Below are positions 32,911-36,247 of a stretch of DNA of 64,000 nt, piece by piece. Both the position numbers and the translations under genes were made by a program. This DNA comes from an uncultured Clostridia bacterium (GTDB taxonomy: Bacteria; Bacillota; Clostridia; Christensenellales; Borkfalkiaceae). Below the pieces are notes generated by a model, which was not told the DNA's origin, searched no databases, and saw only the letters and a program-made list of their open reading frames with translations. The stretch is taken from contig CANQKF010000005.1 of NCBI GenBank assembly GCA_947624445.1, forward strand, positions 31,138 to 95,137, in the 5' to 3' direction. Position 1 is the stretch's first letter. Each line of letters starts with the position of its first letter.

Positions 32911-34788
32911 ATGACGAGCTATTTTGATCCGCTCGACGAATCCTGCCGTTCCCCAATCGGGGCAGTGAAGTGCGGGTGCGAAGTACTATTCCACACATAC
33001 TATCGTGAAGGCGGAGAAGCTGGCTTCTCCGCCGACGTTTGCTATCTGCATTTCTTCCGCGACGACGGATTTTCGCAGTCGGTGCCCATGCGGCGCACCC
33101 GCGACGGCTTTTTCGCCTCGCTGAAATTCCACGAAGTCGGGTTGTACTTCTACTATTTTTCCTTTGGGGAGCGCGTGCTCGGGCGGGGCCCGATGCGCCG
33201 CGGCGTGCTCACGGGGGGAGATCCCGAATGCTGGCAGATCACCGTCTATGCGGAAACCTATGAGACGCCCGCATGGTTCAAGGGGGGCGTGATGTACCAG
33301 ATCTTCCCCGACCGCTTTGCGATCGGCGGCAAGCGGCGGGAGGTCAAGCCCTACCAGATCTTGCGCGACGATTGGGGCGGCATGCCGTCCTTCCGCCCGA
33401 ACGCCTTCGGAAAGGTGCTCAACAACGACTTTTTCGGGGGAAATCTCGCTGGGATCGCCGAAAAACTCGATTATCTCGCCGCGCTGCATGTGAAAACCAT
33501 CTACCTGAATCCCATCTTCGAGGCGTATTCCAATCACCGCTACGACACGGGCGACTACATGAAGATCGACGGGCTGCTCGGCACGCGCGAGGACTTCGAA
33601 GCGCTCGCCGCCGCGGCGAAACGGCGGGGGATCCGCATCCTTTTAGACGGCGTATTCAACCACACGGGCGACGACAGCCGCTACTTCAACAAATACGGGC
33701 GCTACGATTCCCTCGGCGCCTATCAGTCGCACGATTCGCCCTATGCCGCGTGGTATCGCTTCCGCCAATTCCCCGATCTCTATGAGAGCTGGTGGGGCAT
33801 CGAGACGCTCCCCGCGGTCAACGAACAATCCGAATCCTATCGCGAATTCATCACGGGAAGCGACGGCGTCGTGCAGACCTGGATGGCGCGCGGCGCGGCG
33901 GGCTACCGCCTCGACGTTGCCGACGAGCTCCCCGATTCCTTCATCCGCAAGGTGCGTGCCGCCGTCAAGCGCGCCGATCCCGAGGGGCTGCTCATCGGCG
34001 AGGTCTGGGAGGACGCGAGCAACAAAATTTCCTACGGCGAGCGCAGGACGTACCTGCTCGGCGACGAGCTCGACAGCGTGATGAACTATCCGCTCAAGAA
34101 CGGGATCATCAACTTCATGCTCACGGGCAACACGGCGGAGCTGCGCGAGACGATTTTCATGCTGCTCGACAACTACCCCAAGGAGACCCGCGATTGCCTC
34201 ATGAATCTCCTCGGCACGCACGATACGCCGCGCATTCTGACCGTCCTCTCGGGGCGGCGCTGCGCGGATAAGGAGGAAATGGCGCGCCTTGTGCTCACGC
34301 CCGAAGAGCGCGAGACCGCGTGCAAGCGCCTGCACATGGCCGCCGTCTTGCAATTCACGATCTTCGGCGTGCCCTGCATCTATTACGGCGACGAAGTCGG
34401 CATGGAAGGCTATTCCGATCCGTTCTGCCGCGGTTGCTTCCCGTGGGAAGAAGCCGAAGTCTCCGAGCTCGCAAAATTCTATGCGCGGCTGGGCGGGATC
34501 CGCACCGAGATCGCGCCCGACGTGTTCTCCGACGGCGATTACCGCGAACTCTATGCGGACAGCGGCTGCCTCGTGTTTGCGCGCAAAAAAGGAAAGCGCG
34601 CCGTCATCGTCTATTGCAACCGATCCTCCGCGCAGTACCGCCTGCGCTTCCGCGGAAGGTTATACGATCTGCTCAACGAATGCGCCGTGGAAGATCCGCT
34701 CCCGATCCTGGGCGAGAGCTACGGGATCCTACTGTGCGAGGAAGATACTATGTCAGACATAGATACTATGCGTGACATAGTACATTGA
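32911..34788 (+). CDS. GH13 alpha-glycosidase (neopullulanase/maltogenic amylase-like)
   Basis: GGVMYQIFPDRFAIGG, HVKTIYLNPIFEAYSNHRYDTGDY, GIRILLDGVFNHTG, GYRLDVADELP, LIGEVWED, LLGTHDTPR. Confidence 0.93.
   Translation: MTSYFDPLDESCRSPIGAVKCGCEVLFHTYYREGGEAGFSADVCYLHFFRDDGFSQSVPMRRTRDGFFASLKFHEVGLYFYYFSFGERVLGRGPMRRGVLTGGDPECWQITVYAETYETPAWFKGGVMYQIFPDRFAIGGKRREVKPYQILRDDWGGMPSFRPNAFGKVLNNDFFGGNLAGIAEKLDYLAALHVKTIYLNPIFEAYSNHRYDTGDYMKIDGLLGTREDFEALAAAAKRRGIRILLDGVFNHTGDDSRYFNKYGRYDSLGAYQSHDSPYAAWYRFRQFPDLYESWWGIETLPAVNEQSESYREFITGSDGVVQTWMARGAAGYRLDVADELPDSFIRKVRAAVKRADPEGLLIGEVWEDASNKISYGERRTYLLGDELDSVMNYPLKNGIINFMLTGNTAELRETIFMLLDNYPKETRDCLMNLLGTHDTPRILTVLSGRRCADKEEMARLVLTPEERETACKRLHMAAVLQFTIFGVPCIYYGDEVGMEGYSDPFCRGCFPWEEAEVSELAKFYARLGGIRTEIAPDVFSDGDYRELYADSGCLVFARKKGKRAVIVYCNRSSAQYRLRFRGRLYDLLNECAVEDPLPILGESYGILLCEEDTMSDIDTMRDIVH
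32983..33004. repeat. Degenerate palindromic element in GH13 coding sequence (copy D)
   Basis: GTACTATTCCACACATACTATC. Confidence 0.5.
33010..33033. repeat. Perfect inverted repeat inside GH13 coding sequence
   Basis: GGCGGAGAAGC-TG-GCTTCTCCGCC (11-bp arms). Confidence 0.9.
34744..34783. repeat. Compound (double) palindromic element at GH13 3' end (copy E)
   Basis: GATACTATGTCAGACATAGATACTATGCGTGACATAGTAC; encodes the C-terminal DTMSDIDTMRDIV. Confidence 0.7.
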
Positions 34789-35020: not shown

Positions 35021-35060
35021 CTTAACTATTCGTAAAAGCGGCGTTTTGCGAATAGTTAAG
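35021..35060. repeat. dif-like inverted repeat upstream of XerS-like recombinase gene
   Basis: CTTAACTATTCGTAAAA-GCGGCG-TTTTGCGAATAGTTAAG, 17-bp arms with one mismatch, 6-bp spacer. Confidence 0.9.
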
Positions 35061-35131: not shown

Positions 35132-35147
35132 TTAACTATTCGCAAAA
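35132..35147 (+). repeat. Third copy of the TTAACTATTCGCAAAA arm, abutting -35 of the recombinase promoter
   Basis: TTAACTATTCGCAAAA identical to the right arm (reverse complement) of 35021-35060. Confidence 0.85.
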
Positions 35148-35176
35148 TTGACAACCCGCTCGCGCTGTGCTATAAT
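35148..35176 (+). promoter_or_regulatory. promoter of XerS-like gene (TTGACA-17-TATAAT), ATG 9 nt after -10
   Basis: TTGACA 35148-35153, TATAAT 35171-35176, ATG 35186. Confidence 0.85.
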
Positions 35177-35185
35177 GGTCTCGCC

Positions 35186-36247
35186 ATGAAACCCAACGGA
35201 AATTACTATCAGGATCGCAATCTGAAAAATCTCGATAAGATCGACGAACTCCTCGAAGAGCTCCCTTCCTTCTGCGAGGATTTTTTCCGCGGCGTCGAGA
35301 CGCGCACGAGCACGCTCACCCGCCTCAACTACTGCTACGATCTGCGCATCTTCTTCGATTTTCTCGCGCGGAAGAAATTCCGCGGGAAGTCTGCGAAGGA
35401 GATCACCCTCGAGGACCTCGAGCAGATCACGGATACCGATATCGAGATCTTCCTCTCCTATCTCTCCCACTACCGTTTCGGGGAACGCGCCCTCTCCTGC
35501 GACGAGCGCGCCAAGGCGCGCAAGCTCTCCACCGTGCGCTCCCTCTTCAAGTACTTTTTCAACAAGGGGCTCCTCTCGGTCAACAATACGGCGAAGGTCG
35601 CGACTCCCAAACTGCACGAAAAGGAGATCATCCGCCTCGAGGGCGAGGAGATCTCCACCCTCCTCGATACCGCGGAGTTCGGCGACGGGCTCACCGCGCA
35701 CATGTCGGGCTACCACGAAAAGACGAAAGTCCGCGATTGCGCCATCCTCACCCTCTTTCTCGGCACGGGCATCCGTATCTCCGAGCTCGTCGGGCTCAAC
35801 AACGACAGCTTCGATTTCGCCAATCACTCCTTTCTCGTCACGCGCAAGGGCGGAAATCAGGCGATTTTGTATTATTCGGACGAAGTTGCGGACGCGATCA
35901 TCGCCTATATGAACCAAAAGGACGCCGATCCGCGCATCCCAAAGGAAAAGAGCGCCCCCCTCTTTCTCTCCATGCAATATAAGCGGATCACCGTGCGCGC
36001 CGTGGAGAATCTCGTCAAGAAATATGCCTCCATCGCGACGCCGCTCAAGAAGATCACGCCCCACAAACTGCGTTCGACCTACGGCACCGCGCTCTACCGC
36101 GAGACGGGCGATATCTACATCGTGGCGGACGTGCTCGGGCACAGGGACGTCAACACGACCCGCAAGCACTATGCCGCGATCACCGAGGACAACCGCCGCT
36201 CGGTCGCGGGGAAAGTCAAACTGCACCCCACGGAGGAAGGAGAATGA
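35186..36247 (+). CDS. Tyrosine recombinase, XerS/XerC-D-like
   Basis: GTGIRISELVGLNNDSF, TPHKLRSTYGTALYR, VLGHRDVNTTRKHY (R..HKLR..H/Y signature); N-terminal layout resembles XerS. Confidence 0.9.
   Translation: MKPNGNYYQDRNLKNLDKIDELLEELPSFCEDFFRGVETRTSTLTRLNYCYDLRIFFDFLARKKFRGKSAKEITLEDLEQITDTDIEIFLSYLSHYRFGERALSCDERAKARKLSTVRSLFKYFFNKGLLSVNNTAKVATPKLHEKEIIRLEGEEISTLLDTAEFGDGLTAHMSGYHEKTKVRDCAILTLFLGTGIRISELVGLNNDSFDFANHSFLVTRKGGNQAILYYSDEVADAIIAYMNQKDADPRIPKEKSAPLFLSMQYKRITVRAVENLVKKYASIATPLKKITPHKLRSTYGTALYRETGDIYIVADVLGHRDVNTTRKHYAAITEDNRRSVAGKVKLHPTEEGE

Follow-up and report, generated by a model that had tools for sequence, protein, structure and literature searches.

We propose that a palindrome in the genome of an uncultured Clostridia bacterium (Christensenellales, Borkfalkiaceae) is very probably the dif site of a single-recombinase Xer/dif system for chromosome-dimer resolution, located at the replication terminus. 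No Xer recombinase other than the product of the adjacent gene is conserved in the family. According to the original prediction, a dif at the terminus adjoins the gene of a single Xer enzyme, and this reading was upheld because the site is conserved, is kept in low copy number, lies at the GC-skew switch in four genomes, has no XerCD pair as company and has been the target of a natural integration event.

The site and its recombinase

The window, by which we mean the whole 64,000-nucleotide stretch that was analysed, contains the palindrome CTTAACTATTCGTAAAA-GCGGCG-TTTTGCGAATAGTTAAG (Table 1). Its letters agree with the 17-bp arms, single mismatch and 6-bp spacer described previously, 16 of 17 arm positions being complementary, and the inner 11-6-11 layout, earlier recognised as dif-like, corresponds to that of dif sites. 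The ATG of the recombinase gene was found at 35186, confirming the claimed distance of 125 bp. Uniqueness of the 40-mer had been named as a check, and no second full copy of the palindrome exists in the draft genome of 1.84 Mb. All three exact arms of that genome belong to this locus: two in the palindrome and one as a lone half-site, the third arm copy noticed before, identical to the right arm over 16 nt. Allowing up to three mismatches, four arms were observed in the window against 0.22 expected. A further inverted repeat, TACTATGTCAGACATAG / CTATGCGTGACATAGTA, is seen at window positions 34746-34782, where the amylase gene ends, and G042 (L018) has a palindrome resembling it about 370 bp upstream of xer.

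Table 1. Features of the dif-xer locus (window coordinates)
Feature	Coordinates	Strand	Details
dif site, 17-6-17 palindrome	35021..35060	.	conserved core AACTATTCGTAAAA-GCGGCG-TTTTGCGAATAGTT at 35024-35057
lone half-site (one dif arm), candidate autoregulatory operator	35132..35147	+	abuts the -35 box; kept in 7 of 10 same-genus loci
xer promoter, TTGACA - 17 bp - TATAAT	35148..35176	+	predicted from sequence
single Xer-type tyrosine recombinase, 353 aa	35186..36247	+	catalytic R197, K221, H293, R296, H319, Y329

The recombinase consists of an integrase catalytic domain and a SAM-like N-terminal domain, and its R-K-H-R-H-Y set is invariant across 107 orthologue rows, save for one row gapped at two of these positions or one row at each. 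Of the 101 family genomes 87 gave a match, as did 74 of the 77 near-complete ones, nearly always as one strong orthologue per genome. The XerD model gave no hit above its cut-off in the 101 genomes, and the two paralogous recombinases of XerCD/dif were not detected in this family; a canonical dif plus XerC/XerD pair elsewhere would, according to the original prediction, have spoken against it. Eight integrase-family matches in the window's genome mean that other recombinases are present there, but these are not conserved across the family. An FtsK_gamma domain was found in 38 of 41 genomes.

The top NCBIfam model for the protein is XerS (NF003462), with 189.9 bits against a cut-off of 267 bits, a threshold passed by a Lactococcus protein and also by six sampled genomes. 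In the maximum-likelihood tree the clade of the window, which includes Christensenella and other Clostridia, stands apart from the XerS clade, the deeper order being unsure with the long branches and midpoint rooting used. This tree, together with named relatives among the matches, is the basis for placing the window in the Christensenella-related Clostridia. From the earlier description of the enzyme as XerS-like, the layout of one enzyme adjoining its site stands, but membership of XerS was rejected, as the score, the separate tree clade and a site layout unlike difSL all contradict it.

The TATAAT box stops 9 bp short of the xer ATG, and the xer mRNA is therefore probably leaderless or nearly so. 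The same-genus loci that keep the half-site keep the promoter too, the rest of the spacer having diverged, and in another genus a variant half-site is found near the -35 box. In the simplest reading, this conservation beside the -35 box suggests that xer is autoregulated by binding of the recombinase.

Conservation of the site in relatives

Upstream of the orthologues across the family and wider relatives we derived the consensus AACTATTCGYAAAA-N6-TTTTRCGAATAGTT; the 14-6-14 palindrome precedes the orthologue in most of 30 loci belonging to several genera. Of the 77 near-complete family genomes, 71 gave the site in a pattern scan, usually as a single mismatch-free copy, the reversed pattern being only sporadic, and the conservation of the repeat upstream of orthologous recombinases, proposed earlier as a check, is thus observed. 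A few family genomes, many of them incomplete, gave no detected site or gene. Among 84 distinct oriented sites the arms are common to all and the outer bases vary, the invariance of the inner bases being in part imposed by the search pattern; none of these sites has a self-palindromic centre, although chance alone predicts no more than about one. Three reservations attached to the original prediction lose their weight within the clade: GC-containing spacers are ordinary there, near-perfect symmetry of the arms is the rule, and the third copy of the arm is a half-site in its own right, conserved at the xer promoter.

Variants of the same design are found near orthologues in the more distant class members G395 and G347. 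In a 300-genome sample of the phylum, orthologues at E<=1e-60 were confined to the window's class, and sites with up to three mismatches were found, besides the window's own, only in G395 and one distant genome. Given these two results, the matches named after Lachnospiraceae do not show a system general to Lachnospirales.

Other sites came to light near more remote recombinases. A second site class, ATTKCGYAAAATNNNNATTTTRCGMAAT, occurs in other Clostridia beside recombinases about 28-31% identical (L251, L254, L255, L257, L284, L286, L300, L341, L342, L352), and these may possibly constitute another Xer-like pair of site and enzyme. Similar palindromes are seen near recombinases about 28-30% identical in Bacillus, Peribacillus and Fictibacillus (L248, L273, L292, L304), L273 having two of them 1.1 kb apart.

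Position at the replication terminus

In G064, of which 800 kb was read, the cumulative GC skew reaches its maximum 315 bp from the site; in G090 and G088, each read over 200 kb, the distances are 82 bp and 3.6 kb. In Christensenella sp. Marseille-P2438, whose chromosome of 2.56 Mb is complete, the sole exact site and the skew flip are 1.3 kb apart. The reverse switch is found near 0.9-1.0 Mb, at a distance of about half the chromosome, the origin being opposite the site. The GC-skew check proposed earlier thus gave a sharp coincidence in four relatives, but on the window's own 95-kb contig, from a fragmented, G+C-rich genome with weak skew, the maximum falls 10.2 kb to the left of the site. 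The claimed switch of gene orientation at about 38.4 kb, just past lexA, is borne out by the coding tallies: before 38.42 kb about 29.6 kb is on the + strand versus 7.1 kb on the - strand, and after it 0.5 kb versus 22.2 kb. A search for skewed 8-mers as FtsK-guiding motifs gave candidates that are weakly shared and may reflect codon bias.

A Xer/dif system is generally recognised by a conserved tyrosine recombinase with R-K-H-R-H-Y, a site of about 28 bp with two arms and a 6-8 bp centre, essentially one such site per chromosome, its location at the replication terminus, and an FtsK with the gamma domain. We find the enzyme and the palindrome as described, one site as a rule with extra exact ones in G017 and G061, the terminal location in four relatives with a weak signal on the own contig, and the FtsK domain by its presence.

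Elements inserted at the site and phages carrying it

In G075, a member of the same genus (L086; G075:C4, about 4.0-11.6 kb), an insert of about 7.6 kb separates dif from xer and encodes a Zot-like ATPase, a Rep_OBD replication protein and HTH genes, a gene set as in filamentous phages, with only weak similarity to named phage families. It is flanked by an exact 20-bp repeat, CAATGATTTTGCGAATAATT, corresponding to the centre plus the right arm, the left arm being confined to one of the two ends. Phages that integrate via host XerCD with a one-armed attP show this arrangement (reviewed in PMC5357621). Judging from its junctions, the insert is a natural record, an indirect footprint, of recombination at the border of arm and centre.

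G017 (L084, L085) has a 20-bp repeat of the same kind, and at the end of a second contig the same left flank is connected through a site with a different flank, which is consistent with occupied and empty dif states in one population or possibly with an assembly error. At the contig ends L084/L085 the edge of the element looks like a tandem repeat. G061 and G054, too, have Rep genes in inserts that separate dif from xer, and no clear second junction was found for these two.

In IMG/VR, the 24-base core pattern matched 61 stretches versus 14 for the reversed pattern, and a 32-base pattern 14 versus 0. Several of these sites are near genes for the terminase large subunit or portal, on contigs of tailed phages, and one site-bearing contig (L226) has a microvirus capsid gene, the arms of its site being identical to those of the dif in L242. 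Phages appear to use the chromosomal dif as an integration site, and we infer that those bearing the site exploit the host recombinase or resolve their own multimers through it. Intact dif-like sites were seen on phage contigs L203, L206, L212, L213, L221, L224, L199 and L226, often beside terminase/portal genes. The low-GC phage contigs L182, L223, L232 and L192 (36-126 kb) have in common a dif-like site with the centre GGATAG (CTATCC on the other strand), located in some of them within a predicted 91-aa ORF.

Alternative explanations

The palindromic form, the 125-bp distance from xer and the half copy overlapping the promoter region would also suit a mere operator for xer transcription, bound by the recombinase or by another regulator. 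We regard this as very unlikely: G067 and G100 both retain the site in its glgP-amylase neighbourhood even though their xer-hflX lies on another contig, whose examined stretch has no site, and a site that persists where xer has left is not merely the xer operator. An operator would, besides, hardly lie at the skew switch, receive a phage-like insertion or be carried by phages. It is extremely improbable, in our view, that gene and site represent the integrase and attachment site of a mobile element with no chromosomal housekeeping role. A tyrosine recombinase beside a symmetric site is the layout of an integrase too, and phage contigs do carry the site, but nearly every complete family genome has a single orthologue, its neighbours hflX and often lexA are conserved in the loci examined, the site is always near the terminus where this was tested, and both the tree and the order of the genes point to vertical inheritance throughout the family.

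Finally, an intergenic inverted repeat downstream of a + strand gene could be the terminator hairpin of the amylase gene. To this we give next to no credence, as the arm sequence is conserved beyond pairing in 84 distinct sites, single half-copies are found at promoters, and the phage-like insertion contradicts it.

Proposed mechanism and significance

We see the site, then, as a dif. Two recombinase protomers would bind the near-identical arms of each site, two dif copies would synapse, and strand exchange across the asymmetric 6-bp centre would convert the chromosome dimer to monomers, a step that FtsK probably controls at the septum. With the arms nearly symmetric, polarity of the site would come mainly from the centre. 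Binding and cleavage by the recombinase, FtsK dependence and autoregulation through the half-site are what we infer from the sequences. It is a real dif with its own single recombinase, and represents a new lineage within a known type of system.

Such a lineage in a large group of gut Clostridia is apparently undescribed so far; a limited search of the literature turned up no account of it in Christensenella or related Clostridia. A wider suggestion, on which we are evenly divided, is that Christensenella-related Clostridia possess a separate single-recombinase Xer lineage with a near-perfectly palindromic dif taking its polarity from the 6-bp centre, a promoter half-site through which a leaderless xer would be autoregulated, and a broad repertoire of phages (filamentous, micro- and tailed) bearing a whole or half dif for the host enzyme. 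A group known mostly from metagenomes gains hereby a defined dimer-resolution system and an exact terminus marker, which is also an integration spot that phages seem already to use. As the arms are symmetric and the enzyme is one, the order and direction of Xer recombination, with only the central six bases and FtsK breaking the symmetry, become directly testable.

Comparison with known systems

With XerCD/dif of most bacteria our system shares the 11-6-11 core layout and the FtsK gamma domain, and TTCGYA in the arms resembles what we take to be the XerC-arm consensus; XerCD, however, comprises two recombinases and unlike arms, whereas here one recombinase acts with symmetric ones. The G075 element is similar to filamentous phages integrating at dif via XerCD (CTXphi type) in its Zot-like and Rep genes at dif, one-armed junction and duplication of centre and arm, but its host has a single recombinase and the phage is weakly similar to named families.

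XerH/difH of epsilon-proteobacteria likewise relies on one recombinase, comparable in length and encoded next to its site (PMC5357621), with very weak sequence similarity to ours (PDB 5jjv, 29.8 bits). XerS/difSL of streptococci and lactococci also has one recombinase, about 355 aa long and encoded immediately next to the site, and provides the best NCBIfam match, but difSL is 31 bp long with an 11-bp centre and imperfect arms (PMC5357621), against the 6-bp centre and near-perfect arms found here. XerL/dif of Legionellales has a single recombinase, a terminal dif with perfectly symmetric arms and a mobile element that integrates there; its arms are of 10 bp and reportedly without homology to known Xer-binding motifs (PMC9765430). 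XerL, compared here by its description, belongs to a different phylum, and our site differs in its 14-bp arms with TTCGYAAAA and in the half-site at the xer promoter; on that descriptive basis, it is the closest described parallel to the system proposed here.
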